Source of the DNA: Loxodes magnus
Lineage: Eukaryota; Ciliophora; Karyorelictea; Loxodida; Loxodidae
DNA length: 64,000 nucleotides
Reading direction: 5' to 3'
Assembly: GCA_946699065.1 (NCBI GenBank)
Contig: CAMPDV010001519.1
Location: 43,717-107,716 of the forward strand
Below are positions 27,263 through 62,913 of this stretch, piece after piece (the first letter of the stretch is position 1; each line of letters begins with the position of its first letter). The notes beneath the pieces are model-generated. The model was not told the origin of the DNA. It ran no database searches and was given only the letters and a program-made list of their open reading frames with translations. The position numbers and the translations under genes were made by a program.

Positions 27263-28195
27263 TCAATCTTGTTGAAAGAACATTCCAACTCTTACCTTTT
27301 ATATCATATAAATAGAGCAACCATCCATTTTTTATATATCATGAATAAATTTTAAAATCATGTAAAAAAGGTAAAAAGTTCGGATATAGCAAAGTAATAT
27401 TTCAGGAAAGATTGGACCATGTTCTGACATCTCTTTAAAATCGTAAATAAGTGTTTTATCTATATACTAATAGTAATCATATATTATTATCCCATTTATT
27501 TTCTCTACAAAGCTACTTAATACGATATGAGATTATTTAAATAAATTATCATGATGAATTCATCTATCTAAATTACATTCGTATTAATACATATCTTTAC
27601 TCATTCTTGGACCATATCCACCTATATTGTAAACACTTTTATTAGCATAAATACAACTATTTCCTTTTCTACTCACAGGACATGGTTTTATTTATTTAGA
27701 TTTTTGAGTATTCAAATTAAAAGCTTCACATTTATAACTACCTAAATAATGCATATTTTAAGTTATACAGTATAAAATTCTATTCCGGATCTCATAAGTT
27801 ATCTTAAAGCTTTTTTCATAATTATTAAGAGTTTAAAACTCTCTTTTTTATACTTCTTTCCTGAAAAATAAGATACTACTATTACTAGATATCACATAGT
27901 TTAAATTATCAAACTGAAATAAAAAATGAAACCATTAAGCTGTATCAGGGCCTTGGTGTATAAAGCAAACTTTGCTAGAAACGTTGCAGTTTAAAATAGC
28001 TTTACGTTATGATTGTAAAATGATATAAGTGTTATTGAGATAGCATAAGTTAGGTAATATTTCGTATTTGAGAATCATTAAAGGAATCTTAGAAAAAAGT
28101 TATCCTGATTAAGTTTAGTTAGACTATTTTAATACATTTCTTAAGAAAATAGCTTTAGTAAGTAAACTTTCTTTGGTAAAAGCTGTACTATCCAT
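27263..28195 (-). CDS. Kelch-motif protein
   Basis: Starts at ATG 28195 (M-D-S-T-A-F-T-K-E-S) and stays in one frame; 310 codons to the TGA at 27263-27265. A kelch blade is clear around residues 188-212: N-S-C-I-Y-A-N-K-S-V-Y-N-I-G-G-Y-G, then D-M-Y-Q-Y-E-C-N-L-D-R followed by codon 212. Kelch blades have the double Gly and, about 20 residues later, a conserved Trp; codon 212 is TGA (27560-27562) exactly at that Trp. ATG and this codon are 633 bases apart, a multiple of 3, so no indel intervenes. Several TAA/TAG codons read as Gln. Kelch proteins form beta-propellers for protein-protein binding; ciliates have many. Only one blade is textbook, and the remaining ones are weak. The TGA at codon 311 is the likeliest stop, since the sequence after it looks less protein-like. 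Confidence 0.75.
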
Positions 28196-28331
28196 TTAAT
28201 TATTATAAGATAATATTTGATAGTTATAAAAGAAAATTCTTAGATAATAAATTAAATTAAATATTATAAAAAGTATTTTTATTTAGCCTATTTATATTTT
28301 AACTTCAAAAAATACTTAATAAACTAAATTG

Positions 28332-28372
28332 GATTATAGAGCGCGTAGCACTCTAGTTGGTGCACAGATCTT
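28332..28372 (-). repeat. Terminal hairpin repeat, copy A
   Basis: Reads ATTATAGAGCGCGTAGCAC on the plus strand followed by TTGGTGCACAGATCT, i.e. the repeat in minus orientation. The family consensus (minus-to-plus) is AAAGAGCTGCGCACC, a short loop, GTGCTACGCGCTCTATAAT, an imperfect stem-loop with AGAGC pairing GCTCT. This is the most degraded of the five copies. Confidence 0.7.
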
Positions 28373-28690
28373 TAAATTTATTTTATTTAATGTCGAAAAA
28401 TAAAATTTTATGGTTCTCTCTTTCCTTGTTTTCTCTTCTTGCAGTACTTCCCTGTAATTTTTCCTTCCAAAGCATGGGATGCAATATGTGATTACGGGTA
28501 CATCTTTCCCCGACCTATGATGAAAAAGGTTTTCTCGTAGCATTCAGAGTTCTCCATCTTGTCGAATTTTCCTTCTCTTGTTATTGGCTTCTCTTTCTCC
28601 GATTTATCCTACGTCCGCGCTCATTTTTTAGTTACCTTTCTGGACCTCCAAGCAGTACCCGAATGAAAGGACTTTCCACCCTATTTAAAA
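28335..28690 (-). pseudogene. ORF1-family C-terminal fragment next to hairpin A
   Basis: On the minus strand a frame reads M-S-A-D-V-G-Q, then KRRKIRQDGEL, W (TGA) and a part with C-I-P-C followed by Q-E-E-K-T-R-K-E-R. The single Cys-x2-Cys and the basic E/K/R tail resemble the knuckle and tail of ORF1 copies I to IV, but the second half of the CCHC is missing. The frame runs straight into the hairpin repeat. It is GC-richer than its surroundings. Membership in the ORF1 family is inferred from position and composition more than from alignment. Confidence 0.4.
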
Positions 28691-28914
28691 TATATATTTA
28701 ATAAATCTTAATTACTATCACAATACATTTACTAGGCAATAATTGAATTGATTTAAGTCTTTCTTTTATGTATTCAATATAATTTTTTATTTGGGATTCT
28801 TTTTATAAGGAGTAAACGTTCATAATATTATTTATAAGAGAAAGTAATAATATATATAGTTAGAACTAAAAGAGTTATTTTTATTTCTATAGATAAAAAA
28901 TATTAATATTATAT

Positions 28915-29222
28915 AAATAAATAGGGAGGAGCGATCCTCCAACTGAAACTGACTTAAACTCTGGTACCAGGAAGTACCCCATAGGTGAAGAACCAGTTAA
29001 GAGAAGATAAGATAAGATAAGATCGAAGAGGCATCAAGTAGCATTAATGACGAAAGATGCCAGATACTAAGGCCTCTTAGGGTATTCCGATCGCAGCCCT
29101 ATAGAAGACAGAACTGATAAAGGAATGCTAGCACTGTGGAAGACTTCAATAAGTAATTTTTTAGCTTTAAAAATCTTTATTAAAGAGCTGCGCACCATTG
29201 AGGTGCTACGCGCTCTATAATC
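28915..29222 (+). repeat. Structured repeat module ending in hairpin copy B
   Basis: A module of about 300 bp, moderately GC-rich, shared with 33271-33585. Shared landmarks in order: a stem GGAGGA-GCGA-TCCTCC (28925-28940), the palindrome CTGGTACCAG, a stem GGCATC...GATGCC (29030-29061), the string GCCCTATAG, and the terminal hairpin AGAGC...GCTCT (29184-29216). The two copies differ in spacer length by amounts that are not multiples of 3, while the stems are kept, so this looks like conserved RNA structure rather than coding sequence. With hairpin A it bounds an 890-bp interval with inverted ends. Confidence 0.7.
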
Positions 29223-30240
29223 TCATTTATTTATATAAATATTTTTTTAAATGTTTTGATAGTATTATATAAATATAAGATGACTAATTATTAAATTCAT
29301 AAGAAATTAATAAATTTCTTAAATAATAGTATATCTTCAGCAAATTGAACATATTTTACTATATTTTATATACCTTGAATTATTATTATTTTCTACAGAT
29401 AAGAAGCAATCTATTTCTTGATTATTATCATTCAAGAATTTATAATATGAAATTTAGTGAAAATTATTTGTTTATTTATATCTATCTTTTTAAATGTCTT
29501 TTATTAATTTAATATTGTCTAAATTATGACAGATATAGTTTAAAATCATTCACTTATTTATTTAAGTTTCTTATTTTTATTTTACTTGAAATTTTAGATA
29601 TTTTTAAATGATTTTATTTTCTGATTACTCTCTAATCAAACAGTCTATACTAAAGTTTATTTTTAAATTTAATATCTAAAATGCGTTTAATTGCTCAATA
29701 ATTATTCTTGAATTATCTAATTAATTTTAGTTTATTTAATGTTAAAATTCGAGATTGAATAAAATATTTAGTTCTAACTAATCTGTAGGCAATACTAAAA
29801 TACCATCTATTCTGCAATTCAACGCAGACATTGTGATAGTTAGACCTTAATTTTCCTTATCGAGATCTGATCTTCCTAAGTATCTAAATAGATAAGTTCC
29901 TCGTGAAAAAATAAAAAAGGCGCAATTAGCTAAAAAATAACTTTAGTTTCGTGCTCCCTGCATAATTTTCCTTCTGTGCCATATAAAATTGCTAGTTTAT
30001 ATAGTATAGAATCGCAAATAAAATAAAGAATATAAAAGTATTATTAACACTTATATGCAATTTAATAACTTTCATTCTATATAAGTTTCAAATCCTCAAA
30101 TATAAAACATTAATATAATTTTTATATATTTTATTGTAAAATTAAAAAAACTTAAACTAAACTAAAAAGTCTGGTGACATCTTTAATTTTTAGAATTACT
30201 TCCTTCAATTAAAGATGCTTTAGAATTATTAATGAGTTTT
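29223..30240. other. AT-rich stretch, nothing recognised
   Basis: About 1 kb of low-complexity AT-rich DNA without tRNA, recognisable protein motif or repeat match to the rest of the window. A short GC-richer patch near 29820-29960 was read on both strands and gave no motif. Confidence 0.6.
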
Positions 30241-30423
30241 TCATCTCCCACTTTCATCTTCATCTTATACTTCAGCTTGATCATCTTAATTATCAATTTA
30301 TTCCTTCTATTTTTCCACTTCCTCTTTCAGCTCTTCTTGTTATTCCTTTTCTTCCTCGTTCTCTTCACTATTTTCTTGTATATTTTATTGTAATTATATA
30401 ATAATTTCCCTTCATTATTCCAT
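30241..30423 (-). CDS. Small acidic coiled-coil protein or C-terminal exon
   Basis: From ATG 30423 to TGA 30241 the frame gives 60 codons: M-E-Q-W(TGA)-R-E-I-I-I-Q-L-Q-Q-N, then an extremely acidic part, ENSEENEEEKEQQEELKEE and QDEDESGR, ending on TGA. TAA/TAG supply several of the Gln. The frame can be extended upstream (K-L-E-S-K-K-I-Y-E-S-N-L), so this may be the tail of a longer coiled-coil protein. No family recognised. Acidic repeats are easily produced by purine-rich DNA, so it remains moderate. Confidence 0.4.
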
Positions 30424-30865
30424 CTAAGTTAAATTGCTTTCATAAATCTTTTTTGATTCTAGCTTTAATTAAAATTAGTTATATTAACAAACTAAATTTT
30501 TAATTTTAATTAAAAAACTTAAATCTAACTTTATATTCCCAAAGCTTATTTTTTGTTTATTAATACTTATAAAAAAACTAACTTTTTTATAAATTAAGTA
30601 TATATTATTTATTTAAGCATACTACTATATTAGTTTACATTAATATAGATTTATTAAATAGTTAGTTTCTATAAGAGATTATTCTAAAAAAGTATTAAGT
30701 ATTTATGTGTTTGCTTCTACAGATTTATTTTTTTATTGATTTTCCAAATTATTGGATTAGATTAAATATAAGTTATTATATTTAGCTTTTAACAAAACTT
30801 AGTAGTGTTAGATAACATCTTTTGCTATTATACTTATTTTCGAAATCTGTATAAATAATAGAAAA

Positions 30866-31740
30866 ATCGCTGGTTTCTAGAAGGGTTTTTTATCACTTCT
30901 TTAGAGTAGAAGAAAAAACCAGAAAAAAGTTCTCTTGTATTTATCGCTTTTCCTAGTAAATTTAACCATAGATAAAATGGAAGAATTTAAGAAAAATCTA
31001 AACTCCTAAAAATTAGAATAAAGGGATTTTCTTTCTTCAAAGGACAAGAAGAAACTGATAAAATATTCCAAACAGAAAAGTTAACACATTTCTCCATGCC
31101 ACCATAAAAAATGAAGAAGAAACCTTTCAACTGAATCATTGAAACAAATAAGTAATAAATAAAAAATAAACGAAGTAGACTAAGATCGAAAATTAATAAC
31201 AGATACTACATGTTTTATCTAGATGATACCATGTGCTAGACAAAAGAGCTAAAGCCGGATTTTATGAATGAACGACAATATTAAAGAATGATATTTGAAT
31301 AATGAGAGAACAAGACGAGAAAAATTGAGTAAAATTAGATTTAAGATTCAAATAATAGAAGTAAGTTTTTAGAAATCTTTATAAGAAACTCCTTAAAAAC
31401 GGAGAAAAAGAAAAGACATTTCATAGAATAGTAAAAAGATGCTACATCTGCAAAAGCACTTGAAACTTATGATGGAATACTCTAAATAAAAATAAATAAG
31501 TTGAATATCTGAAGAAATATTAACTTTAGCAACTGGAATAAGGAATGACAGAATCTTTTCCATCGGGAAATGGGAAAATCTGGAAGAAAAACGAAATTCT
31601 TAACTTAGAATATAAAAAAGAGTAGGAGCAAGAAAAATATAATACAAAGATAGAAAACGCAGGAATGGAGATTTTATACATTAATAGCTTCGATCAAGCC
31701 GAAAGGCGAATAATTTTTTAATGAAATAAATAATTTTTAA
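30866..31740 (+). pseudogene. ORF1-family copy I, degenerate
   Basis: Head reads I-A-G-F-Q-K-G-F (start codon ATC where copy III has ATG). Downstream it parallels copy III: S-S-K-D-K near 31040; the segment D-I-W-I-M-R-E-Q-D-E-K-N-W-V-K-L-D with both Trp as TGA; knuckle C-Y-I-C-K-S-T-W at 31440; and, after a change of frame that copy III also shows, I-G-K-W-E-N-L-E. Between the copies the first of these segments changes mainly at silent or conservative positions (ATT/ATC, GAA/GAG, I/V), pointing to descent from a translated gene. The copy itself is degraded: the start is lost and the knuckle lacks His and the last Cys. Confidence 0.65.
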
Positions 31741-31744
31741 ATAT

Positions 31745-31988
31745 TAAACTCGAAATAGAAGCAGAAAGATCTGAGCAGTAAGTTAGAAAAGATAAAAGAA
31801 AATACAAAATTTACAGTGCTAAACGAAACTAAGAGAATAATGGAATGATTCATTGATAGTCGAAGAAGAAAAAACTCAAGAAATAAACCTAAACGAGAAA
31901 AAAAAATGTTATTACTGTAATTCTCGTATGTTTCTGGGAAAAAGATGTAGGTTTTTCGATTTTAATAAGAGTACTGAAAAGAAAAAAT
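31745..31988 (+). pseudogene. ORF1-family C-terminal fragment, cut by copy II
   Basis: Reads V-E-E-E-K-T-Q-E-I followed by KKKCYYCNSRMFLGKRC, which lines up with the linker and knuckle of copy II (I-E-E-E-Q-V-I-K ... KKKCQFCKSQNHPCRRC). The fourth and fifth ligand positions are altered (His replaced). It stops being family-like exactly where the ATG of copy II begins, suggesting insertion of a younger element into an older one. Confidence 0.55.
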
Positions 31989-32873
31989 ATGGAAGGCTTA
32001 AAGAAAGGTTTCTACACCACCTCCAGGAAATAGGAGAGGAAACCAGAAGCCGCTCTTAATCAGTCGTCTTACACTTAACCCTAATCTTCTTCTTAATAAG
32101 ACTAAACTCCGGTGAAGTAATTTTAATCTTCCTTACCCAGGGAAGAATACCCAATTGCTAGGACAAGCCATGAACTCACTCCGTCAACGCAGGAAAAGCC
32201 AAGGAAGCAGCCTAAGTCGGCTCTACATTAGGAGGTGTCGGAAGTCTATCCATCCGGGTAGTTGAGCATAGAACAACTAATCAAGGTAGTCATAAACCTA
32301 TAGGAAGAGGTTAAGAAGCTCAAGAGGGAAAATATGAAGCTAATGGATTTAATTGAGCAACAGGACTCAAGAGAGCTTTGAATGGCAAATTGGGAAAGGG
32401 AGCTTGACACTCTCTGGAAGTATCAGTAGGAAGAATTGAAACAGATGAGCGCCTCAATAAAGACGATACAAGATTAGAATAAGGAAATAATATTAAGTTA
32501 GAGACAAGAAATTCCTAAGATCGACAAAATGGAAATAGAAGAAGAATAGGTAATCAAGATGGAGCCGGCTAGAAAGATAAAGAAGAAATGTTAATTTTGT
32601 AAAAGCCAGAATCATCCGTGCAGAAGATGCAAGAAATTCTAGAAATTCAAGAAAGAATACTGAATTAGAGAAGAAAAGGAAAGGAAGAAACTGTATTGCA
32701 ATAAGACGGACAAATATACAAGAAAAAATAAAAACAATCAAGAACTTCAATAATAGAGAAGATGAGAATTGGGACAAGAGAGAATCAAGAAGAAAAACCA
32801 CCAAGATTAAAAAACTTTTATTTTATGCGGCGAATTGAAGCTACCGCAGAACATTTAAATTGAATTGAATTGA
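31989..32873 (+). CDS. ORF1-family copy II: coiled-coil CCHC zinc-knuckle protein
   Basis: The best-preserved member. ATG at 31989 gives M-E-G-L-K-K-G-F-Y-T-T-S; the knuckle C-Q-F-C-K-S-Q-N-H-P-C-R-R-C begins at 32589, exactly 600 bases later, so the frame is unbroken. Residues 1-70 are Q/S/P-rich, about 75-180 form a leucine-heptad coiled coil (L-I-K-V-V-I-N-L-Q-E-E-V), residues 201-214 are the CCHC knuckle (C201, C204, H209, C214), and the tail is very basic. In-frame TGA sits at codons 131, 225, 259 and 295. Codon 295 (32871-32873) is a possible stop, but the frame stays open beyond it. The plan matches Gag/ORF1 proteins that coat element RNA; no reverse transcriptase is in the same copy, so it is probably non-autonomous. 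Confidence 0.65.
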
Positions 32874-33270
32874 ATAAGAGTATTGAAACTGCTAGAAGAA
32901 ACCGGAGAATAAAAAGAAGAGACTTCTTAAGATATAACTAAAAAGAGAAAGAGAAAAATTATTTTGCAACAAATTGGAAAAATGATACTAGAAAAAAAGA
33001 TCAATCATTATCTAGGCGCAATAATATCTCAAAAATATTTGCATAGTAAGCAGAAGAGTTTTAGAGATTTTCAAATTTTTATATTTAGACTTTAGAAAAT
33101 CTAGAGGTTAGCAGGAAAGAGATTGAAATACCTCCAAGAGAGCCGGACATTTAATTATAATTTTAATTTTTGTTTTTATTTAAAATGTTAAATGCTAATT
33201 TAAAGGTTTTTTCCATTAAAATATTTATAATATATTATATTTATATTAATATTTTATTATATAATTGATT

Positions 33271-33585
33271 TTAAATAGGGAAGAGAAATTCTTCCACTGT
33301 AATTGAAAGAAACTCTGGTACCAGGAAATATCCCGTGTGAAGACCTGAACAAGAATCTTGGAAGAAGCCAAGGATGTCAAGACCGAGGCATCAAGTAACG
33401 ATATGTTGAACGATGCCTGAGAATAATGTCTCTTTAGGGAAGCACTCCGACACTGGCCCTATAGGAGACAAGAACTTTCAAGGGATGCTAACAAAGGGAA
33501 GAATGTAATGTAATACGTTTTTTAAACTTTAAAAAACTTTAATTAAAGAGCTGCTCTGCTATCGTAGTGCTACGCGCTCTATAAT
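33271..33585 (+). repeat. Structured repeat module ending in hairpin copy C
   Basis: Second copy of the module at 28915-29222. It has stem GGAAGA-GAAAT-TCTTCC (33279-33295), CTGGTACCAG, stem GGCATC...GATGCC (33387-33417), GCCCTATAG, and terminal hairpin AGAGC...GCTCT (33547-33580) followed by ATAAT. Relative to the other copy, the first stem differs by a compensating pair (G-C to A-T on both sides). It lies downstream of ORF1 copy II in the same orientation, so it may be the 3' end of that element. Confidence 0.7.
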
Positions 33586-35401: not shown

Positions 35402-38331
35402 TCAATTTTATTGATGTCTTTGGTAGAAAAGTGTGTAAGCGTTTGGATCTTGAATATCTTAACATTTTTATACATTTGAATCGTTGAAATAATACCACGT
35501 ATCATCAACTTTTGCATAAGCATGTAATGCCCATTTTTGCCTGTTTCTATATGATTATTCACTGCATATAAATCATATGAGCATTATTCATTTTTAATTT
35601 CAGGAAGAATCTGATTTAAATTTAATTCTTCTGGATATTCTATTTCCTCTTAATTTTTAACTATATCATATCCATTCTATATAAACCTCTTCAATTATAT
35701 AATTAGTATTTCAGATACTTTATATAATATTATTATTTTTGTTCCATTTACATGAGTTTTACAGTTCTTACAATAGAACTATTTTTATCCTTCTAGATAT
35801 TCAGTTTATGATTAGTATTTTATGCAGTCATAGAGAGTTGTTTTAGATATTATTTACTAAGCTGGAATATTATTTCAAATAGCATAATTTCTGTACAGAA
35901 TATACTATTCAAACATCTAATTTTTTTCTTTAAGAGTTATTTTAATCCTAAAATCACTTTTTTCAATGAATTATCCAATGTTTTCCCTTATACTTACTTT
36001 AAGTAGATGACCTTGTTAACATCTGTTTTATGAACTACAAAATACGCAAATATTCTTTCTTCTAACTTTGTTTTCTTGATTTCTATTTATTTACAAATCT
36101 TTGTTTAAGTCTTATATAACTGATTCTCTATTTTATTCTTCTCTGATACTTACCTAAAAAATTTATAAGACATGATTATCTTATGTATGAAAATTAGAAA
36201 AGAATTAGAAATGAATAAGTTAATAAATATCTTTTAAACTTGTCTATCTTTCTATATCTAAAATTTCAGGTATTCCTATTCTTTTTGAGAGATTATTTCA
36301 AAAGCTTTTATTTTCATAATAAAATTCTACGAAAGTTCTATAATAAGTTTAAGATTTCGGATAAACTTTGTAACCTAACACTTTTTACTGAGTTAAGTTT
36401 GAAAAACTATTTTTTATTGCCTAAAATGTGTCTAAAGTTACTTCTTTGTCACACTAAATTAGTATAATTTCCTTAGCACCTGTTTACTAAGTTAAAAGAT
36501 TTATAGATTCTACAATTGGTTGGTTCTTTTAAAAATAAATTTATGAATTTCAGGCTTAACCACTAAATTCATTAGGAATTATAGTAATTATTTGTCTTTT
36601 GGGAATTTCTATGCCTAATACAGCAAAGGATTCAAATATTACTGATTCTAACATGCATTACTCACACTTCAAAATTGATTTTATTTGTCCATGCATTAAA
36701 TCTACTATTTTTGAATCATTTCTCTTTCTATATCTATCTCAACATTCTTATGAAACTATTTCATCCGATCTTCCATCACTTGATTTTTCTTCGATATAAG
36801 GTTTCATCGTAATTTTGTTTAAATCTTCATGTAAAATGCCAAGTATAAAATTAATAAACTATTAAGAATCATGTTCCTATTCTTTAGTAAACTAATTAGC
36901 AAAATTTAGTAATTACTCTCTAAAACTTTGAGGTTTTAATATTCCTTTTTATTATTAAGTTGCTTACTTAACAAGAAACGCAAACTCAGAAGTAAGAACT
37001 CCTCCTGTTCCAAACTAATTTTTTGCATTTAGATCCTTTTATCATTAATTAGATAGACAATACTCTACTAAAGGAGTAGTATGTAATAAGCATTATAAAG
37101 CTGAATTCATATAGCATGTATTTCCTAAGTTTTCTAATCCTATTAAGCTAAGCTTTATTTATTAAAAGCATTAATGTAGAGTATCTTACTATGAGCATTC
37201 TTTTGAACACCATTATAATAAACTACATTACTAGCATTTAAACTAAATCCCATTTTACTTACATTAATAGCATGCTTCTTATATAATGGAGCTTGTTCCT
37301 TATTCTATAATAATAGTAGAGTTATTATCTATTTTTAGTTCTTCGAATGTATCTTCCAAGTCATTTATTTTAGAAATAGGAGTTCTAAAAATTTAAATAC
37401 TTGTAGTGAATGGATTGAAAAACTGCAAAAGGTTGCTAAGTTCAGTTCTTGTTTCTAGTTTTCATACTTTGAAGTCAGTTTCTTAAAAGTATTAAGATAT
37501 AAAAGATCTTATTGAACTTTACTTTGTGACTTTAAATTTAAAAAAGTATCGTTAACTATCATTCAAATATATTGTATTTAGAAGCAAATATTAAGGCTAT
37601 ATTTCAGAGATTTAACTTGCAGATTAAGTTTGGCTCTAGAAAAATAAATAATCTTCTTGAACCTGCACTTCCTGGTTAAACTATCATGCTTCTATCTATT
37701 TTTAATCTTATAAGCTTTGCAAAAATATTTTAAACTTTTGCTAGAAAATGTTTAAAAAGTTTTCTAGTTTTGCTATCTATTAGATCCCTTGAAGTTCAAT
37801 CTCCTCATATTATTTCCAATCAACTTTTTGCTTACTACTCTTTATCAAGATTGAGTTAGATTAACCAGTCTATAATCTTTCTAAATGAAATTTAAAGCTT
37901 AGAATTTGTTGTTTTATTTTATCTTAAGAGTTTAATAGACTTTTAGTAGCAGAATCACTTAATAAAGTTTTTTATATCAAGCTAACAAAACTTTAAACGA
38001 ATTAGGCTCTTAGTTTTTTAATTTTCTATAGAACTTCTTTGTTTTTTTAGTGCTGCAATTGAAGCTTCTGATATGCATCTTTTATTACTTCCTTCTAATT
38101 TTACTGATTTATCAGTTCTTCAATTATTTGTCTATCCTGCTATAAATTTATAGGGAGTATACTAGAGATTTGCTTACAGGAGGAGAATATGCATATAGTT
38201 TGCTAAGTTCTTTCGTATTGGTTAAAAATACAGCTTTAGCATAAAATATGAGAGCATGGGAGTTTTAGAGGAATGTGTCTAAGAACATCAAATGGATATT
38301 AACAAGACTCACACTACAGAGTGAGGGACAT
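35402..38331 (-). CDS. RING / coiled-coil / UBL / MYND-like / USP deubiquitinase
   Basis: ATG 38331 opens a frame of about 975 codons read with TAA/TAG as Gln and TGA as Trp. RING-type finger: C7, C10, C26, H28, C31, C34, C47, C52. Coiled coil at about 80-215. A ubiquitin-like stretch at about 265-345 (F-K-V-W-K-L-E, then D-T-F-E-E-L). MYND-like finger: C354, C357, C366, C369, C375, C379, H386, C388. USP catalytic domain: Cys box G-L-E-N-L-G-N-T-C-Y-M-N-S, with C406 the nucleophile; Gln box E-H-D-S-Q-Q-F near 486-492; L-K-R-F; T-L-Y-D-C-I; finger C-K-N-C; His box N-G-H-Y, H935. USPs cleave ubiquitin from substrates. In-frame TGA at codons 216, 290, 430, 531, 594, 678 and 819; codon 531 sits in E-C-(W)-D-R, a Trp in USP4/15-type enzymes. 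One base is missing right after G-H-Y (35522), after which A-Y-A-K-V and the canonical end A-Y-T-L-F-Y-Q-R continue in the next frame to TGA 35402. Confidence 0.85.
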
Positions 38332-40057: not shown

Positions 40058-42601
40058 TCAAACCTTTAAAAAAACCAAATATTAAAATAAAGAATCCTAT
40101 TGATGTTTAATATAAAGCACTTTATTTTATATTATAGCCTTAATAATTAATTTCAAATAACTAAGATCAATATCACTAATATCATCTTTTAATTTACTAA
40201 AAATAAGTATAATTATTAATTTGATATACGAATTAAGATTCATAATAGACTTATTTAATAATAAATAAAAAGCTATGTGAAAAAGTTTTAATCTCATTGT
40301 TAAATATTTCAAAATACTAAAATTTAATTTCTTAAACTCAAAAGTTTATAAAAGTTGTATTTACCTCTTAATTTTTTTAAAACAATTAAGAATATTTTTT
40401 TATCTTTATAAGCAATATAATCTTTATCATCTTAAAGAAAAATCATAAGTACTTATATAGTGTATTAAGAGAAGAATATGTTGCATCTTAATTTAATATT
40501 TTATATTTCATCAAATTTTTAGGTTTTATTAATTTATTATTCTTAATCTATTAAAATATTAGTTTCTTATAAAATATCTTTTGAATCTATGGAAATCCTT
40601 TTTCTTAACTTTTTCTTTATTGGTTTTCAAACAATTTTCCTTTTTATTCTTAAAGTATAAATTATGACTTATTCGCTCTTTTTATTTATCTTAGAAAGTT
40701 CTCATAATATAAATCCTTCTCTTCTATTTCATTTTATTTGTCTACGAAAAATTATGATTCTCCAAATTTTTAATTATATTCTTCATTAATTTATGAAGGG
40801 GTTAGAATCATCAAATTTATTTAATCTGATACTAATATCTCTCATTATTGTAGGAGAACGATCTTTTAATACTTTATTTTTTTTATGATAGCCAACATTT
40901 TGTTATCGCTTCTTTATTCGACTGAGAAAAAGAAAGTTTCTATTGCTTTAATTTTTGAAATTTTTAGTGAAAGTTTATTTAAATTTTGCTTCATTTGATT
41001 ATAGGATCTATCTGATCTGCTTTATATACCCAATATACTTTGAAAAGATTATCAACTCTCTCTTTTGAGTCTTTCAAGTAAAGGACATTCCTTAGAAAGT
41101 TTTATATTACATTATCTAAGCTAAGCTTTATTTCTCAAATTAGGGAAAAAGAAAATCACATATCACTAATAGAATTTATTTCCTGATTTTTCCCTTTTAA
41201 TAGCATAGTAAGAAAAGCTAAAAAATTAATGTCAAAAGGATATAAAGAACTAGGGTTTAATTATACTTTTATTTAGAACTAAGTGACAAAGTAGAAGCAC
41301 AAAGAGTAAAATATTTGATTCTTAAAATAAATAAGATATTAACTTTAAAACTTAATAGCTTATCAATCTTTAAAGGAATAATCCTTATTTTTATATCTAT
41401 GTCTCCTAATTGTTATTTAAATGATAGCTTTCTTAGAAATATGGAAAAATTAAGCTAAAAACTAATTTGCAAATACTTATTCCTTCATTTAATCTTAATA
41501 ACCAACCTTAGATAATAAACTTAAGGGTATACAAACATAGTGATTATTGAATACTAATAAGCATTAAGATATTAAATATTTAACTTAGTCTCTTTAACTT
41601 GAATTTTCTTATAAAAGCCAATAAGTATATAATTAATGTTTATTTATTTAAATATAATTAATAGAAAAGTTGAAAGAGCTATTAATTAATATTACTTAGT
41701 TATTAAATTTTTAATTAATATTTAGTTATTAAAGAGTTCATGGGTTTTGCTTGTTTCTTTTCAAAATACTTTCTTCTAATAAGTTAAAGCTTAAAAGGCG
41801 GCTTTCTTTATTTCTTCTTCTTTTCATCTTTAAAGCATACTGAAATATCACTTTTAGTTCTAATTCTTAATTTTACTTTCTTCTCATTTGATTTGAAATG
41901 TTTTATACTGTTTAGTTATAATCTTTTGATGCCTCATTCTAGCTTTTTCGCTAATATTTGTTGCATGCTGAACTTTTTTCAGAATAAACTTTACTTTAAG
42001 TTACATGAGTATTAAAAGGTTTTTCTTCCAATTTATCTTACGTATGTTTATCACAGTTTAGTAGTAAACCCTTATTTTTGTTTTTCTTAGTGGTTTTCGT
42101 TTTAAAAAATTTGTTGAGCCATAAATGATTAGTTTACTTCAAGTTAGTTATGGACTTTTAATTTCCTTTCTTTCTATTCAAATATTCAAATAGATTCTTA
42201 ACCTTCTCATTACAATTTTATTATCATTTATTATGACTTAGTAAGTATTCTAGCATTTTTAGTTCTATTTAGATGCTCTCATTGCTTAACTAAATTTTGC
42301 TAAAGATAGTATACTACAATCCCTTACTTTTATGATGCTTGATTGCCTCTACTATTTACTCTAGATTTTATTCACTAGGAATCATTTGAAATAAGTTTCA
42401 CTTAGAAATAAAATATAGAAGGTGTAAAGTTTCTAAGTGAGTTAGATTATAGAAAGAAACTAATCTAATCATATCATCTTCTTTCAGTTCTTCCATCTTA
42501 TTTTAAAATTCCCAAACCTAAGACTGAAAGAAATTATATACCATAATACGTTAGCTTAGTGTAATAAAACTGACTATCTCCTAACTAGTTTTTTCCTCCA
42601 T
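40058..42601 (-). CDS. Unrecognised 847-codon protein, full-length copy
   Basis: Starts M-E-E-K-T-S-Q-E-I-V-S at ATG 42601. The frame is still in register at 40312 (763 codons) and meets TGA at 40058-40060, codon 848, which I take as the stop. About ten earlier in-frame TGA codons are read as Trp. A diverged paralogue starts at 62913: both share T-L-(S/D)-Q-R-(I/M)-M-V-x-N-F-F-Q, E-T-L-H-L-L-Y, S-K-W-N and K-M-L-E-Y. Codon 26 is CAG here and TAG there; codon 17 is TAA here and TAG there; codon 68 is TGA here and TGG there. The N-terminal 150 residues look all-helical, the middle is basic and C-terminal parts are hydrophobic. No domain recognised. From 40199 rightward the gene lies in the left arm of the inverted repeat, and its last 47 codons are outside it. 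Confidence 0.6.
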
Positions 42602-43137
42602 ATTATAACCTTCTATAATCAATTGTATTTTAATAGAAAAATATTCTTAATTTCTAATAAAAGCTAATAGCTATATTTTTAACTATAGAAAGTTAAAATA
42701 CACTTAAATTTAGTAAAAACCTTGCTAATTAGAATAAAAATTATGATCATAATATAAATAACTGGAAATATTAGTAAGCTAAATGTATAATTTCAAAGTA
42801 GCTAATTGTAGAATTATAAGACAATTAAATGCTTCAAAGAGTATTATAATCATATTTATTTATAAATTAAACTTAATAGATATGAAGATTTTTATTTGAC
42901 TGCATATGTAGATAAAAAGATAAACTTAATAGAGTTAGCAAGTGACAAAATAATATTTTATTGGATTTTAAGAATATAATTAAGCTTAATAAATATAAAT
43001 ATAAATATAAATATAAAAAATAAAAGCTTAAGAGCAACATTTTAAAATTATATTTAATTCAAAGCATCAATACCAGGATTGTATAACTTTAGTTTGAAAA
43101 TTAAGGATAAATTCTACATTACTAGTTTAAAAAAATA
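40199..43137. repeat. Left arm of a 2.94-kb inverted repeat
   Basis: Reverse complement of 45089-48032. Position pairs sum to 88209 at the gene starts and to about 88226-88231 near both ends, so only a few small indels separate the arms. The largest is a stretch of ATAAAT repeats near 43000 that is about 18 bp longer in this arm. Very few mismatches were seen. The outer boundary is at ATACTTATTTTT (reverse strand), where the gene continues here but not in the other arm. Confidence 0.95.
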
Positions 43138-45088: not shown

Positions 45089-48032
45089 TATTTTTTTAAA
45101 CTAGTAATGTAGAATTTATCCTTAGTTTTCAAACTAAAGTTATACAATCCTGCTATTAATGCTTTGAACTAAATATAATTTTAAAAATATTAATCTTAAG
45201 CTTTTATTTTTTATATTTATTAAGCTTAATTATATTCTTAAAATCCAATAAAATATTATTTTGTCACTTGCTAACTCTATTAAGTTTATCTTTTTATCTA
45301 CATATGCAGTCAAATAAAAATCTTCATATCTATTAAGTTTAATTTATAAATAAATATGATTATAATACTCTTTGAAGCATTTAATTGTCTTATAATTCTA
45401 CAATTAGCTACTTTGAAATTATACATTTAGCTTACTAATATTTCCAGTTATTTATATTATGATCATAATTTTTATTCTAATTAGCAAGGTTTTTACTAAG
45501 TTTAAGTGTATTTTAACTTTCTATAGTTAAAAATATAGCTATTAGCTTTTATTAGAAATTAAGAATATTTTTCTATTAAAATACAATTGATTATAGAAGG
45601 TTATAATATGGAGGAAAAAACTAGTTAGGAGATAGTCAGTTTTATTACACTAAGCTAACGTATTATGGTATATAATTTCTTTCAGTCTTAGGTTTGGGAA
45701 TTTTAAAATAAGATGGAAGAACTGAAAGAAGATGATATGATTAGATTAGTTTCTTTCTATAATCTAACTCACTTAGAAACTTTACACCTTCTATATTTTA
45801 TTTCTAAGTGAAACTTATTTCAATTGATTCCTAGTGAATAAAATCTAGAGTAAATAGTAGAGGCAATCAAGCATCATAAAAGTAAGGGATTGTAGTATAC
45901 TATCTTTAGCAAAATTTAGTTAAGCAATGAGAGCATCTAAATAGAACTAAAAATGCTAGAATACTTACTAAGTCATAATAAATGATAATAAAATTGTAAT
46001 GAGAAGGTTAAGAATCTATTTGAATATTTGAATAGAAAGAAAGGAAATTAAAAGTCCATAACTAACTTGAAGTAAACTAATCATTTATGGCTCAACAAAT
46101 TTTTTAAAACGAAAACCACTAAGAAAAACAAAAATAAGGGTTTACTACTAAACTGTGATAAACATACGTAAGATAAATTGGAAGAAAAACCTTTTAATAC
46201 TCATGTAACTTAAAGTAAAGTTTATTCTGAAAAAAGTTCAGCATGCAACAAATATTAGCGAAAAAGCTAGAATGAGGCATCAAAAGATTATAACTAAACA
46301 GTATAAAACATTTCAAATCAAATGAGAAGAAAGTAAAATTAAGAATTAGAACTAAAAGTGATATTTCAGTATGCTTTAAAGATGAAAAGAAGAAGAAATA
46401 AAGAAAGCCGCCTTTTAAGTTTTAACTTATTAGAAGAAAGTATTTTGAAAAGAAATAAGCAAAACCTATGAACTCTTTAATAACTAAATATTAATTAAAA
46501 GTTTAATAACTAAGTAATATTAATTAATAGCTCTTTCAACTTTTCTATTAATTATATTTAAATAAATAAACATTAATTATATACTTATTGGTTTTTATAA
46601 GAAAATTCAAGTTAAAGAGACTAAGTTAAATATTTAATATCTTAATGCTTATTAGTATTCAATAGTCACTATGTTTGTATACCCTTAAGTTTATTATCTA
46701 AGGTTGGTTATTAAGATTAAATGAAGGAATAAGTATTTGCAAATTAGTTTTTAGCTTAATTTTTCCATATTTCTAAGAAAGCTATCATTTAAATAACAAT
46801 TAGGAGACATAGATATAAAAATAAAAATAAGGATTATTCCTTTAAAGATTGATAAGCTATTAAGTTTTAAAGTTAATATCTTATTTATTTAAAGAATCAA
46901 ATATTTTACTCTTTGTGCTTCTACTCTGTCACTTAGTTCTAAATAAAAGTATAATTAAACCCTAGCTCTTTATATCCTTTTGACATTAATTTTTTAGCTT
47001 TTCTTACTATGCTATTAAAAGGGAAAAATCAGGAAATAAATTCTATTAGTGATATGTGATTTTCTTTTTCCCTAATTTGAGAAATAAAGCTTAGCTTAGA
47101 TAATGTAATATAAAACTTTCTAAGGAATGTCCTTTACTTGAAAGACTCAAAAGAGAGAGTTGATAATCTTTAAAAAGTATATTGGGTATATAAAGCAGAT
47201 CAGATAGATCCTATAATCAAATGAAGCAAAATTTAAATAAACTTTCACTAAAAATTACAAAAATTAAAGCAATAGAAACTTTCTTTTTCTCAGTCGAATA
47301 AAGAAGCGATAACAAAATGTTGGCTATCATAAAAAAATAAAGTATTAAAGATCGTTCTCCTACAATAATGAGAGATATTAGTATCAGATTAAATAAATTT
47401 GATGATTCTAACCCCTTCATAAATTAATGAAGAATATAATTAAAAATTTGGAGAATCATAATTTTTCGTAGACAAATAAAATGAAATAGAAGAGAAGGAT
47501 TTATATTATGAGAACTTTCTAAGATAAATAAATTTTTAAGACGAATAAAAAGAGCGAATAAGTCATAATTTATACTTTAAGAATAAAAAGGAAAATTTTT
47601 TGAAAACCAATAAAGAAAAAGCTAAGAAAAAGGATTTCCATAGATTCAAAAGATTTTTTATAAGCAACTATTATTTTAATAGATTAAGAATAATAAATTA
47701 ATAAAACCTAAAAATTTGATGAAATATAAAATAATAAATTAAGATGCAACATATTCTACTCTTAATACACTATATAAGTACTTATGATTTTTCTTTAAGA
47801 TGATAAAGATTATATTGCTTATAAAGATAAAAAAATATTCTTAATTGTTTTAAAAAAATTAAGAGGTAAATACAACTTTTATAAACTTTTGAGTTTAAGA
47901 AATTAAATTTTAGTATTTTGAAATATTTAACAATGAGATTAAAACTTTTTCACATAGCTTTTTATTTATTATTAAATAAGTCTATTATGAATCTTAATTC
48001 GTATATCAAATTATTAATTATACTTATTTTTT
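45089..48032. repeat. Right arm of the 2.94-kb inverted repeat
   Basis: Reverse complement of 40199-43137. Inner end at TATTTTTTTAAACTAGTAATG (45089 onward). The outer end at 48032 falls in the middle of the copied gene, so this arm looks like the derived copy and the left arm like the source. The tRNA-Asp gene begins 79 bp beyond. Confidence 0.95.
45608..48032 (+). pseudogene. Truncated inverted copy of the 847-codon gene
   Basis: ATG 45608 begins the same protein as 42601. Register is kept at 45719, 45809 (the TGA of S-K-W-N) and 47045, all multiples of 3 from the ATG. About 808 codons are present before the arm ends at 48032; the C-terminal S-K-L-K-D-D-I-S-D-I-D-L part of the full copy is replaced by unrelated sequence. 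If both copies are transcribed their RNAs are complementary over nearly 3 kb only if read-through crosses the palindrome; each on its own is a sense transcript. Confidence 0.6.
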
Positions 48033-51507: not shown

Positions 51508-52368
51508 ATGTAAAAGAGTTATGCTTAAATAAGAAACTTTGAAAATTTTTCTGACTTGAATGATATTTTCTTTAAGTAAAAAACTAGGAAAGAGAATTTA
51601 ATTAGTTAGACATTAGATAATAGTTTAAGAAAGGTATAGAATAATATTCAGATTAAAACATATCAAACAAATTCTGCTGCTCCTATTAATATTAATGAAA
51701 TGGCCACCTAAAATATTCAAAATTAAGTGATGATCTAGCAATTTTGTCCTGAAAATTCGAATGGAAATTTCGAAGAAAAGGATGTCTTACCATTTAAAGA
51801 GAACATTCAGAGCATTAGTCATTATATACCTAAAGATACAGTAGAAAAATAAATGAGTTAGTAATAATTAAAAAAAGAAGAAAAATAAGAAGAGTTGACG
51901 CAAATTGCTCAAGATGTTTCTGATCTATATGAGATGTAAATAGAATTTTTCTGTGAGATTTGTTAAAAGTAATATAAGAATAAAAAAACTTATAACTCTC
52001 ATGTCTAAACTAAACACAATGAGACTAAACCATTTTAATGCAACATTTGTTAAAAAAGTTTCAAAAGACCAGATTATTTATAGAAGCACAAATAATCACA
52101 TAATGAAGACAAAGAAATTACTTGTAACGAGTGTGATCAAAAGTTCAAATCCAAGGTCACCCATGAAAAACATGTTAAAACAGTTCACGCAAAAATTGTA
52201 TGTGGAACTTGCAAATGCTGCAACAAAGGATTCACTCGTATGGATTATTTAAAGAAGCATTTGCAAAGAGGATAATAAAACTATAAATGTATACATCAAG
52301 GATGCGCAAAAAGATTTTCAAGTAAGCAATCGATGGAAAGACACAATGCAGCAAAGCACTAAGGTTGA
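51508..52368 (+). CDS. C2H2 zinc-finger protein, five fingers
   Basis: ATG 51508 to TGA 52366-52368, 286 codons, unbroken and with no internal TGA. Residues 1-145 are polar and Gln-rich; the Gln come largely from TAA/TAG. Fingers: C149/C152/H165/H170; C178/C181/H194/H198; C206/C209/H222/H227; C235/C238/H251 with no clear fourth ligand; C261/C266/H279/H284. Linkers such as T-K-P-F-Q-C are classic, and TAA/TAG fall inside linkers and helices (I-C-Q-K, D-Y-L-Q-K-H). A TAA two codons before the end reads as Gln 285. C2H2 arrays like this bind DNA, so a nuclear transcription-factor role is likely. This is the best evidence in the window that TGA also works as the stop. Confidence 0.93.
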
Positions 52369-56877: not shown

Positions 56878-58683
56878 TCAATATATGTCAGTTTCTTCAA
56901 GTAAACCTTCAGGTAATAGAAATTCTTCTCTTATTAGTTCCATATCTTCATCATTTTCTTCTTCATTATCTCTTGTTCTGCTGTCTTCTATCTATCTACG
57001 TTTTATTGATTCTTTATTACAAGCGTCCATTATTTTTTCTTACATACTTTGCTAATTTTCGTTTCTAATTATTTTCTTCTTGATCAAGTTTTTATACACT
57101 CATAAAATTTATCCATTCCCTGTTCTATAATATTTTCCTATTTCTTTTTTTTGATTCAATTTTCTTTTCTATATATAATAAAAAATCTTATATAAGTTTA
57201 TAATTTTATTTTTAGTAGCTTTTCTCTCATTCAATCTTCTACCAAAATCCATTGCTCAGTGTATATTAAAATAAGTCTGTATCAAAGTCAAACTAATATA
57301 CTTGCTTTTTATTTCTATTTGCAAAGTAAAACAATTTTAATTTCCTTAAAATGATTATCCATGCTTTATGATCTATTTTCTAAGTTTTTCGTATAAATTA
57401 ATCCAGAATTTTTACTTTGTAAAAAGCAAGAATCGCAAGAATATTATTTGATAATTGACTTTTAAGAAGCAATCATTTGTTATTTATTAAATCATACATT
57501 TAAATTTTTTTTTATGAGTCGAAGCCTCCAATCACGAATATTTCGTTTAATAATCAATAAAGGCTCCAAAATATGATGCTGGATATATTATATTTTAAAT
57601 TTATTTAAATGTTTGACTATTTTTATCAAAAACTTCACATTAATTAACGTAATCTGAGTAATATCCAGAAATTATAAAAATATTCTACAAGTGATTGCAA
57701 ATAGTTCCATGATTATATCTACTAAACTTCATTTAAAAGTATCCTTATTTTTATTTTTAGTTATTTAAAAAACTAAACATTTGCCATTTTACTCACTTCC
57801 AGATATTAATAAAACTTATTCTTCTATTTGCTCTATTTAAGTATTATCGAATCTTGTCTTTAAAATATCAGTTTAAAATGTTTTAATTTAAGTTTTTCTA
57901 AATTATAATCTTTCCTGGTTTTAGTGTAGCTTTTTATATATGATGGATTTTAAATTCCTTAATATCTACTTTTTTATTAGTTTTCCACTATTTTATTCTG
58001 TCTACTATTTTACAATTAAGCTTCTTGTAAGATGTTTTAATTTGCTGATTATTTTTATTCTTATAAGCTTTACAAAAATATCTTAAAATTTTGCTTGAAA
58101 AATTCTAAAAAATACTCTAATTTTTATATTTACTAGACTCCATAAAGCTCCACTTTCTCATAGAATTTTCAGTTAATTTCTTGCTCTTTACTGTCTTCAA
58201 ATTCGATTATATCTTTCTCTTCTATAAATATTCTAAATACAATTTAAAGTATCTAATTTATTAGCTGGCTTTATCTTAAGAACTTAATAGCTTTTAAGAA
58301 GCAGAATCCTTAAATAGAGTTTAGTACATCAAACTAACAGCACTCCAAATGAAGTAGGCTCGAAGTTTATTAATCTTCTGAAGAATTTGTTTATTTTTTT
58401 CGTGCTGCATTTAAAGTTTCTGATATGTATCTTTTATTGCTTCCTTCTAATTTTATTGATTAATCTAGTCCTCAACTATTTATTTATCCTGCTATAAATT
58501 TATTGGGTGTATATTGGAGATTTACTTACAATTGGAGAAGGAACAAATAATTTATTAATTTGTTTCATATTAGTTATAAATACAGCTTTAGCATAGAGTA
58601 TGAGAGCATGGGAATTTTAGAGGAATGTGTCTAAGAGCATCGAATGGATACTAGCAAGATGCACACTCCTGCCTTAGTGACAT
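56878..58683 (-). CDS. RING / coiled-coil / kelch-type protein
   Basis: ATG 58683 to TGA 56878-56880, 601 codons plus stop; all landmarks are in one frame. RING-type finger with the same eight ligands and spacing as the deubiquitinase gene (C7, C10, C26, H28, C31, C34, C47, C52). The coiled coil (E-A-I-K-D-T-Y-Q-K-L-Q-M-Q-H) also aligns, up to about residue 210. After that the proteins differ: here a kelch-like blade follows at about 334-355 (N-I-F-I-I-S-G-Y-Y-S-D then C-E-V-F-D-K-N), and a very acidic tail D-N-E-E-E-N-D-E-D ending E-E-T-D-I-Y before TGA. In-frame TGA at codons 272, 297 and 384, among others, read as Trp. A RING plus kelch protein would suit a ubiquitin ligase with a substrate-binding propeller; this is inference. 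Blades after the first are weak, so the kelch part may be partly decayed. Confidence 0.7.
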
Positions 58684-58999
58684 TTTAATATTAGGATAGT
58701 AGGATGCTAGAATAAATATGATTTATATAATTTAGAAATACGTGGATTTTGGTGAACTTATGCTAGCTATTTTATTTTAAAATTATATTATAAATAATTA
58801 ATTAATCTTTGGATTCTTTTTCTAGATATAAATCCCAGAGTTAAAATTCCTTTTTTGTAATTCCTAAAAAGAAAAAAAAATCCTTATTCATATTTGCCTA
58901 CATTCCTTTATTTTATTTAATATAAGGTTAAATTGTTAAATTAAAAAGACTTAAGTGTTTTCCTACTATTAGCAGCTTTATTGAAGTTTATTTTTTATA

Positions 59000-59560
59000 T
59001 AGTAAATTTTCATAGATTAACAGAATATCTTTGAAAATACCACATTGTAATCTCATTTACCATCTTAGCATTGATTTCTTATTTTATAAATGCTTAAATT
59101 TTTAATTTCCTACTTTTAAAATAGATTAAGCTTCTAGAAACTATTATATAATTATTAGATGCTGCTAATGCTTCTAATTTACAATATAATTAATCTCCCT
59201 TTCTTAATTTAAATAATAAGCCTTTAGAAATTTCTTATCTATTAGATTTTATTTTAACGCTATCATTTATGTAGTTTTAATATGCTGCTAAATTTATTCT
59301 TTTGCTTAAAACTGCTTCTTATTTTAAATTTTTTTGTTTATATCTCTTGCAGCCTTTCTAATTTTTTTTGTTTCCTACATTTGTTATCCTCCAGAAATAA
59401 TTCAAATTGATTACTTTCTTAATTTAATATTTTAAGTGAATATATAAAAGCATTATTCGCTTTAAATTTTCTGCTTTTATCCGAATCATGAACTGATTCT
59501 TATCACTCGAACCAAATAATCAATAAAATCTCCTTTTATTATATTTCATCAATCCGAAAA
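59000..59560 (-). pseudogene. Diverged counterpart of the 38600-39233 region
   Basis: Occupies the same place relative to the RING gene in the second segment. A frame opening M-E-I at about 59560 and the stretch ATGCTGCTAAATTT near 59280 parallel M-E-I-N-R and GTGCTGCTAAATTT in the first segment. Frames are not consistent along its length. Function unknown. Confidence 0.3.
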
Positions 59561-61259
59561 AATTTCCATTAATTATAATTTACCACAACAAGCATCCGAT
59601 AAATAAAAGCAACCAAATAAAAAAGCAAAAGTTATATTTCTAAAGCTGGATATAAATCTCTAATTTAATATATTAGAGAATATTTAAATTAAGCATCTTA
59701 ATATTAAATTAGCTTTAGAAACTATTTTACTATTATTTTCCCTTTTATCGCTCTTCATTATTTAAAAAATATCTATCTAGGCTGATTATTTTTCCTATTA
59801 AGAGTCTCTTTATTATTTACATAATTAGATGTGTAATTATAAAAGCCAAAATATCTTAAATATTTATATACTTGGAATTTGGTAGAGATGCTAAGGATCT
59901 ATTAATTTTTTATAAGAGATTGCATTTTAAAATTAATGATAGAGTTGAAGACTAAAATAAGATATCGAGCATTAATGTATAAAGCAGCTTCTTAGTAATA
60001 AAATAGAAAAATAACAGTTTAGATGATTTATTCTAAATGATTAGGGGATAATAAAAGGCAGAGTTAATTGAAAGAATTAATAATCATATATAAAATAAAA
60101 ATTATGCCTAGCTTTATTATTGATATTGATTATGAGAGCTTACAAATGGAATAACTAATAAGATATAAAATACATAGAAGAAACTTTTGATAACGAAAGA
60201 TGCTTTGGTTTAGAAAAATAATTAGTCACTATTGTAGTCGAAATTAAAAAAATTAAGAATTAAATAGAAACAGCAATTTAGTAGGTATAAGTAAAATAAT
60301 TTTTAACTTTATTAAAGAAGCCAAATAATTTGAGTAAAGCTTATTATTTAAATTATAAAATAACGCATCCAATTAAAAAAGAAACAATTTAAAATTATAT
60401 TTGATAAATAATAAATATCCCTATTTAATTCTATCAAATAGCTATAATATTAGTCTTTATATTCGATAAGCCAAAGAAAAGAGATATAAATCTTTTATTA
60501 TTTAAAAAAATTATATAAAAGATAGATTAAAAACTTAGTAATAAAAGAAAATTTATAAAATTAATGCCTTCAACTATTTTATTTCAAGAATGAAGATTAA
60601 TAAATTTTAATTTTGTCTTGCTAAATTTTTATATTTTTGCTATTAAAGCATCGTTAGATTTTAAACTTGAAGTGCATTTTATTTGAAAACTAAAATAAAA
60701 AATAAAAGAAATAATTTTACCTTATATAAAGAATGTCAATTATTTAAAAAAAAACTTTAGAATACAAAAAATTTAAATTTCATATATAATTTATTAAAAG
60801 AAACTTTAGTGACTACATAATCTATTTTTTCTTTCTGAAAAATTATTTTTTAAAATTATTCTAAATGTTTTTCTTAAATTGCTCAAATTGTTAAAATTAT
60901 CAATCATAAAACCATTTTTGTTCTATAGATAAAGGATATCTATTTTTTATATTTATTCATTTCATACTAGGCTTTAGCTTTAAGTATAATGAGAAACTTA
61001 AATTATTTCAATAAAAATTTAAAGCGTTTTTATTAGATTTTAATCATAACACTAGTTCTTTTTCTCTATTTTTATGAGTTTTTAAAAATATTTATATTTA
61101 AAAGTCTTTTATATGTCTTATATAGCTTTAGAAAGAATTAATTTATATTTCTCAGAAGAAAATACTTAATCCTCTTATTTTTCTTAAAAAGGAATTTTTT
61201 CTTCAAAATCTTCAATTTATGTCCTTAAAAAAATGTCTTACAATCTATTTTTAATTATT

Positions 61260-62913
61260 TAATTGCAAAATTAAAAGTTCTAGCTCTATTAATTGTTTTT
61301 TAACTAATTTCCTAAACTATTTAAAGTTTACCTTGGTCTTAAAATTTAATTATATTTCTTGCTTTTTATACTTATAAAGATATCTTTCTCTTTTGATTTA
61401 ACTAGTAAGTATCTTTATATAGAAAATCTATCATTGTTTAAGCTTAATTCCTTTTTTTCTTTACAAGGTATATTTTTTTATTTTTATCCGTAAACTTTGT
61501 TTCAAAAATAGAAGTGTTTGTCTTAATTGATTATCCATTTAAACTTAACTAAGAAAAATAAAGGTTTTTATATCTTGAAGATTAAATAAATAACATCTAA
61601 TTTTATTTTAGTTTAAGTTTGAAAAAGCCAAAGTTAATGATTGTAGAATTAATATACCTATTATAAAAATAAAAAATTAATAAACTTAAAATGAATATAT
61701 CCTTATTTTTATTTCAAATCATGAATAAAATAATCAAAATGGTGATAATTTCAAAGACAAGAAATTAATAATTTTTTATGTTTTTTGATTTATTCATTCC
61801 ATCGAAAAATTAACTTTTGCTAAATCGAAAAAACTAAAATATTTCCTAATTTTTTTGCAATAAAGATGATTATTCATTTAGATATATTTTAAGTTTTTCT
61901 TGTAAACTTTACATCTAAAATTTTTTTAGATATAGGATAAATAAACATTTGCTTTATTTTTAATTTTTAAGTATAGGTATTTAAAGTTTATGCTTTAATT
62001 TTGAATAATTAGTAAAAAAAATTTTTAAATCTGTCTAGTTATTTTAAAATCTCATGAGTCTTTTTGATTCTCTTCACAGGGGTATCTTCTAATTGGTTTA
62101 ACTTATGAAGATAATTCTCTTTATCTCTACTTCTTTTCATCCTAGAAAAATACTGAAATATCATTTTCATTTCTTCTTTATTTTATTTTCTTTTCGATTA
62201 TTTTGAAAGTTTTTCAACTATTTGGTTATAATTTTTTAATCCAGCACTCTATCTTTATTGCAAGTATTTATTTTATAGTTAACTCCTATCAGGATTAATT
62301 TTACCTTAAATAACTGGAGTATTTAAGGGCATAATTTTAGATGAATCCTAAGTATATTAATTATAGTTTAGTTTGTTGTCTTTATTTATGTTCCTCAAAT
62401 TTCTTCTAATTTTAATATCCTTTTCTAATACTTATTGAGTGCTTCCATGCAAGCTAGTAATATATTTTTTATTTCCTTTCTTGCTACTCAAGTACTAAAT
62501 AAGTCTTAAACCTTCTCATTGTAGTTCTATTATTCCTTATTATAACTTAGCTAATATTCTAGCATTTTTAGTCCTATTTAAATATCCTCATTGCTTAACT
62601 AAACTTTGATATAATTAATATATTTGAATCCTTTGCTTAAATGTAGCCGGATTATTTCTATAGCTTCCTTTAAATCACTTCGGCTTGGTCTTTTCTCCAA
62701 TGGGTTCCATTTAGATAGAATATAAAGAAGATGTAACGTTTCCTAGTGGTTTAACTCATAAGAAGCTATCATTTTAACTAAATCAACTTCATTCAGTACT
62801 TCCTACTTGTCTTTACATAGCTAAACCTTCTACTAAAAGAAGTTATTTACCATCATACGCTAATCTAGCGTAACTTAATTGGCAACTAACACCAAATTCA
62901 TTTATTCTTTCAT
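61260..62913 (-). CDS. Diverged paralogue of the 847-codon gene
   Basis: ATG 62913 gives M-K-E-Q-M-N-L-V-L-V and then T-L-D-Q-R-M-M-V-N-N-F-F-Q-Q-K, matching the full copy at 42601. E-T-L-H-L-L-Y-I-L-S-K-W-N carries TGG (62707-62709) where the first copy has TGA. Similarity continues through L-S-N-E-D-I-Q-I and K-M-L-E-Y-Q to about residue 140 in one frame, and returns further on (L-S-L-N-N, S-K-E-K near 61400), but with apparent frame changes between. The 3' boundary cannot be set. It may be a decaying copy or a fast-evolving gene. Confidence 0.5.

Follow-up and report, generated by a model that had tools for sequence, protein, structure and literature searches.

UAA and UAG as glutamine and UGA as both tryptophan and stop in a stretch of the Loxodes magnus genome: worked examples of a known code

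A stretch of 64,000 nucleotides on contig CAMPDV010001519.1 of Loxodes magnus (hereafter the window) almost certainly represents macronuclear DNA of this karyorelict ciliate written in the code of NCBI table 27, in which, judging from the sequence, UAA and UAG would encode glutamine (Gln) and UGA would encode tryptophan (Trp) inside coding sequences and terminate translation near the 3′ end of the mRNA. A previous reading of the letters alone (the sequence-only reading) had proposed TAA and TAG as Gln and TGA as Trp and also stop, which holds in the window and, within the UCH domain family, across its genome; the codons at all the positions it listed are as it gave them. Codes of this kind are relevant to the evolution of genetic codes and to the annotation of genomes of this type, the latter because the standard code leaves 25–64 kb of the window without a single open frame of 200 codons. 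When TAA and TAG are read through, two clearly recognisable protein stretches emerge, namely a deubiquitinase of the USP type (minus strand) and a C2H2 zinc-finger protein (plus strand). The code has already been described in Loxodes magnus, and the window hence provides worked examples rather than a discovery: the principle itself was published in 2016 (PMC4967479), and the code was stated for Loxodes in 2024 with a citation to 2022 (PMC11441545). A single-cell survey of 2019 gave UGA as stop and UAR as Gln in Loxodes (PMC6935857). To these descriptions, the present work adds family-level figures for UGA and UAA/UAG usage in 46 UCH domains.

The meaning of the three codons was assessed in a blind column test on 47 aligned UCH domains, of which one belongs to the window and the other 46 to the genome containing it (705,730,643 bases); TAA, TAG, and TGA were masked as X, and the residues of the other sequences in each column were scored over background, in nats. 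The genomic domains were taken from 48 UCH stretches (8 + 40) drawn from 111 listed genome matches, after exclusion of one match in two pieces (L078) and one more than 85% identical to another (L073, to L072), and two TGA cells with fewer than 10 other residues in their column were dropped. Across 145 TGA cells, Trp scored +223.9 nats while the remaining 19 amino acids were all negative, and Trp was the most enriched residue of the column for 92 of these cells. Seven Trp columns held 77 of the 145 TGA cells, compared to a mean of 1.5 and a maximum of 6 in 2000 random placements, under which the Trp score never rose above −328.1 nats. Since the score remained at 223.1 (over 140 TGA cells) once the window's own cells were removed, this result is independent of the window copy. 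For TAG (445 cells), Gln scored +84.6 nats and all other residues were negative; for TAA (946 cells), Gln alone was positive at +14.4 nats, a low total which probably reflects the abundance of TAA in variable regions. Eight control codons (TGG, CAA, CAG, TGT, AGA, GAA, TTA, and TCA) each ranked their own known residue first, with AGA also weakly positive for lysine.

Two of the Trp columns are almost wholly occupied by TGG and TGA, namely column 159 (below) and column 802. Column 802 carries TGG in 31 domains, TGA in 12, and no other codon (of 43), and a near-invariant Gln column is made up of TAA (22), TAG (13), CAA (11), and CAG (1), with no other codon among the 47 domains; a second, mostly-Gln column includes TAA (5), TAG (18), CAA (14), CAG (9), and a single other codon, that of the window, again of 47. 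Within the 46 genomic domains, TGA represents 51.6% of TGA and TGG codons (142 of 275, with 133 TGG), and 72% of Gln codons are TAA or TAG. The tabulation of family-conserved residues aligned to TGA that the sequence-only reading had proposed, run here on the UCH family, places TGA in Trp columns rather than at random. One UCH subfamily, with members about 335 codons long, has numerous clustered copies on several contigs of the genome (C1431, C365, C1234, and C4067).

These distributions bear directly on the possibility of a table 6 code, in which UAA and UAG are Gln and UGA is only a stop, so that any in-frame UGA would point to a pseudogene or to the end of a gene. Internal TGA is indeed absent from the C2H2 gene and from either genomic copy of the release factor eRF1, and the window USP copy is apparently frame-shifted, both as such a code would have it. 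Decay would however scatter TGA, whereas 77 of the 145 TGA cells fall into Trp columns where random placement yields 1.5 on average, and TGA makes up 142 of 275 TGA-or-TGG codons in the genomic UCH domains. The column test therefore refutes a table 6 code unless every aligned domain is a dead copy, and UGA appears as a sense codon in the UCH columns, at the S-K-W-N site, and in the USP15 alignment (both below); we consider this code to have practically no chance of applying here.

In the window, the USP-type gene with its UCH domain occupies 35402–37482 (minus strand; 37482 marks the part covered rather than a 5′ end) and includes in-frame TAA, TAG, and TGA. It matches Pfam UCH with an E-value of 3.5e-37, and a PDB search identified USP15 (E 4.5e-63) and USP4 as its nearest solved relatives. 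The Trp that the sequence-only reading had placed at the TGA of an E-x-W-x-R motif (36739–36741, minus strand) is borne out: the codon is TGA, and it stands at the Trp of EEAWENHLKRNDS in human USP15. In the UCH family alignment, the same site (column 159) carries TGG in 22 domains, TGA in 15 including the window, and other codons in 3, of 40. Another TGA (37042–37044, minus strand), in the context LSNQ-TGA-QKDLN, lies in an aromatic column, with a tyrosine in USP15 in the PDB alignment and, across the 47 domains, TGA in 16 (including the window), TGG in 6, and other codons in 25, TAT (8) and TTT (5) among them. The E-x-W site also bears on the idea that short introns contain these TGAs, which would then be removed before translation. 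Loxodes does have short introns, with a mode of 17 bp (PMC11441545), but the TGA at 36739–36741 aligns as precisely a single column without flanking insertions (“qecWdryrkrnds” vs “eeaWenhlkrnds” in USP15), and paralogues carry TGG in that column, which makes an intronic origin extremely improbable.

A second family provides another conserved Trp site. Two copies of an A-type coding domain are found in the window, at 45608–46030 (plus strand) and 42179–42601 (minus strand), with 1 difference in 423 nt between them, and a B-type paralogue is located at 62491–62913 (minus strand); 71 of 140 aligned residues are identical between the copy at 45608–46030 and its paralogue. As the sequence-only reading had noted, codon 68 is TGA in both A-type copies (45809–45811, plus strand; 42398–42400, minus strand) and TGG in the paralogue (62707–62709, minus strand), at a conserved S-K-W-N. 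The Gln codons cited from the same alignment were also found as described, with TAA at codon 17 opposite TAG and CAG at codon 26 opposite TAG. A genome search with the 45608 domain yielded 27 matches, and 11 of 12 fetched genomic stretches (all except L093, which had two partial hits) were included in an alignment of 14 rows. At the S-K-W-N codon, 7 A-type rows carry TGA and 5 B-type rows carry TGG; TGA also appears in a further B-type row (L090), and row L092 has a frame shift at this point. The occurrence of TGA in L090 alongside five TGG-bearing B-type copies therefore indicates that TGA and TGG replace each other at a conserved site even among members of one subfamily. The 847-codon gene to which the sequence-only reading had assigned the A-type domain is unsupported past about codon 141, as homology to the paralogue ends near that point and the frame was not picked by a codon-usage scan.

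The A-type domain is present in both arms of a large palindrome (40199–43137 and 45089–48031), whose arms of about 2.9 kb are composed of pieces that are 96–100% complementary, around a centre of about 1.95 kb; contig C1425 likewise carries two A-type copies in opposite orientation. A- and B-type domains recur together, about 15–17 kb apart, on contigs C1425, C2048, C1928, C2539, C4590, and C1813, and this part of the window is therefore a multi-copy block or a set of unmerged alleles. On C1928, a long A-type copy lies 77 kb from the B-type domain, and an A-type fragment 17 kb from it.

The evidence for UGA as a stop comes from gene ends. The C2H2 gene, with a coding part scored from 51616 to 52368 (plus strand), displays Pfam matches to zf-met (1.8e-9) and zf-C2H2 (5.2e-8) and matches zinc fingers in the PDB with an E-value of 3.9e-26. 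It contains 20 in-frame TAA or TAG codons and no internal TGA and ends on TGA, in agreement with the sequence-only reading, although with a chance of about 0.024 that 249 codons lack TGA at the local TGA frequency, this absence is by itself a modest point. Its terminator is most likely the TGA at 52366–52368, which comes right after the last finger and at the end of the codon-usage coding score (51616–52365). For the USP gene, the most likely terminator is a TGA at 35402–35404 (minus strand), directly after the UCH C-terminus “AYTLFYQRHQQN”, and the nearest upstream TGA in the sense frame (35875–35877) is about 157 codons away.

Two eRF1 genes (L080 and L081) are located about 35 kb from each other on contig C196. 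Both end on TGA and have four TGG codons per copy, with TGA absent from their interior; the first aligns with solved eRF1 over almost its entire length. The NIKS- and YLCDNKF-region motifs of eRF1 contact the stop codon; here they read RAQNIKS and FLCENTF, compared to TASNIKS and YLCDNKF in the solved protein. Single changes in eRF1, however, do not track ciliate codes (PMC4967479). The best match to the eRF1_1 profile, L079, was not used as an eRF1: its motifs suggest Pelota/Dom34, a relative of eRF1.

All three genes with placeable ends (USP and eRF1 by homology, C2H2 after its last finger) terminate on TGA, and UAA or UAG was the terminator of none of these three, a small sample. This is also what separates the karyorelict reading from a Condylostoma-type code (table 28), in which all three codons would also be able to stop. 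The 2022 karyorelict paper of Seah et al. reportedly includes a small minority of UAA stops, which would count for table 28. Coding UAA, like coding UGA, is also depleted just before the stop in Loxodes (PMC11441545), yet the Loxodes gene model published there has UGA as its sole stop. Because the three placeable ends are all TGA, the karyorelict reading is supported as the better fit, and we regard a table 28 code as very unlikely.

The 60 nt past the two stops of the window have a G+C content of 18% and 23%, whereas the coding parts reach 25% and 29%, and short AT-rich 3′ ends are common to the window and to published Loxodes magnus (PMC11441545). In the UCH domains, TGA and TGG number 16 and 38 within 50 codons of the domain end and 126 and 95 farther away (Fisher p 0.0004), in a comparison where cells are not independent, one column provides most of the cells near the end, and the domain end is a proxy for the stop. 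While driven by one column, this apparent scarcity would agree with the depletion of coding UGA over about 20 codons before the stop in Loxodes (PMC11441545).

In the published model, which we take over as a proposal, translation would be the default at UGA. At upstream UGAs, a Trp-tRNA would outcompete eRF1, a contest that we infer along the lines of that model (PMC4967479), and near the end of the transcript eRF1 would win, owing to a short 3′ untranslated region and a nearby poly(A) tail. That no codon is reserved for stop in such a code shows that where translation ends can depend on the place in the mRNA instead of on codon identity. As tested here, the window displays no difference in code from the table 27 code given for Loxodes magnus in Seah et al. 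2024, where UGA is likewise Trp and the only stop (PMC11441545). Parduczia sp. likewise uses UAA and UAG as Gln and UGA as Trp or stop (Swart et al. 2016, PMC4967479), with UGA at 0.120% of codons compared to 0.61% (142 of 23,229) in the 46 UCH domains, which represent one expanded family. Condylostoma magnum (table 28) likewise gives all 64 codons a sense meaning, but UAA, UAG, and UGA can all also stop there (PMC4967479), whereas here UGA alone was seen stopping, in three genes.

UGA may be a main Trp codon rather than a rare extra in some families, as the UCH domains would suggest (142 UGA vs 133 UGG), while both eRF1 copies, each with four Trp codons, use UGG only; we hold this reading tentatively and think it somewhat less probable than the opposite. 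If the UCH share applied genome-wide, the Trp-tRNA would have to decode UGA and UGG with similar efficiency, and termination would have to depend almost wholly on 3′-end context. A third meaning of UGA, selenocysteine, reported for Parduczia and Condylostoma, could by analogy be kept here as well. A tRNA-Trp with a UCA anticodon, or with CCA and an anticodon stem of 4 bp, would be a candidate reader of UGA, and tRNA-Gln with UUA and CUA anticodons would be expected. A search for tRNAs was uninformative on those for Trp and Gln: 63 of 42,786 candidates to the RF00005 profile were scored, and ARAGORN, applied to 30 loci, returned only tRNA-Lys(UUU) and tRNA-Ala(UGC). A DNA search of the genome with a yeast tRNA-Trp query gave no match, an empty result that, for this type of search, shows nothing. 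The tRNA-Lys(UUU) genes occur in many equal-scoring copies (L018–L030; contigs C78, C103, and C158), some of them paired with tRNA-Ala(UGC), and these loci are evenly spaced, at 1752–1753 bp on C158 and C78 and 527 bp on C103.

Several observations weigh against the code as read here. The blind codon test draws on a single family, UCH. Within the window USP gene, 3 of the 5 TGAs included in the UCH alignment (36550, 36298, and 35875) sit in variable, non-Trp columns, and an extra in-frame TGA is found upstream of the UCH domain (37684–37686), which may belong to another gene. The same copy seems 1 nt short near 35522 (35509–35532), between its GHY and AYAK motifs, and its last ~42 codons are in another frame, the shifted part matching UCH positions 219–254 (E 2.9e-4). 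Because the end of the UCH domain lies in another frame, this copy may be a pseudogene or carry an assembly error at the deletion. Upstream of the UCH domain, the sequence-only reading had pointed to a Trp-like site in a ubiquitin-like domain: the codon at 37462–37464 (minus strand) is TGA, but a Pfam scan of this short fragment identified no domain at E 10; the stretch may resemble the ubiquitin-like domain of USP15. In the A-type domain, codon 126 is TGA where B-type rows have glutamate. Finally, two TGAs stand at the putative Trp position of weak kelch repeats, and both repeats fall below Pfam cut-offs. The first (27560–27562, minus strand) was part of the sequence-only reading; its codon was confirmed, and the kelch assignment is weak (Kelch_6 E 0.0039, 17.6 bits compared to a cut-off of 25.3; no match at E 0.1 in a whole-frame Pfam scan); the second (57473–57475, minus strand; Kelch_1 E 0.0059) had not been listed there. 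The 847-codon gene, the ubiquitin-like site, and the kelch site at 27560 are hence weak or unsupported, and the conclusion on the code is independent of them.

Beyond these features, Pfam scans of the six frames of 25–64 kb under code 27, a search that the sequence-only reading had suggested for the USP, kelch, and C2H2 frames, recovered the UCH domain and the C2H2 fingers and left kelch below the cut-off. Matches to Cox20, TPR_CcmH_CycH, L51_S25_CI-B8, and zf-C2H2_10 were below cut-offs and dismissed, as were PCI, DUF4822, Choline_bind_1, and Cg6151-P, which appeared at chance level in the short-fragment scan at E 10. The open reading frame list and a base-position score proved too weak for calling genes. 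A codon-usage scan trained on the UCH domains and one eRF1 identified 16 segments, with the USP gene (42.8), the C2H2 gene (31.6), and overlapping frames at 31.4–33.1 kb (36.8 and 50.1) on top; the A-type frame was not among the 16.

The minus strand also carries a pair of RING-like motifs, both below the cut-off for PF13445, at 38200–38313 (E 5.2e-4) and 58543–58665 (E 4.2e-4), which lie upstream of the USP gene and of the kelch-like frame at 57.5 kb, respectively. The window from position 1 to between 24 and 26 kb is filled by a tandem array with a step of 91–92 bp, which displays a constant strand asymmetry, with a GC skew of about 0.65 and an AT skew of 0.32–0.41.

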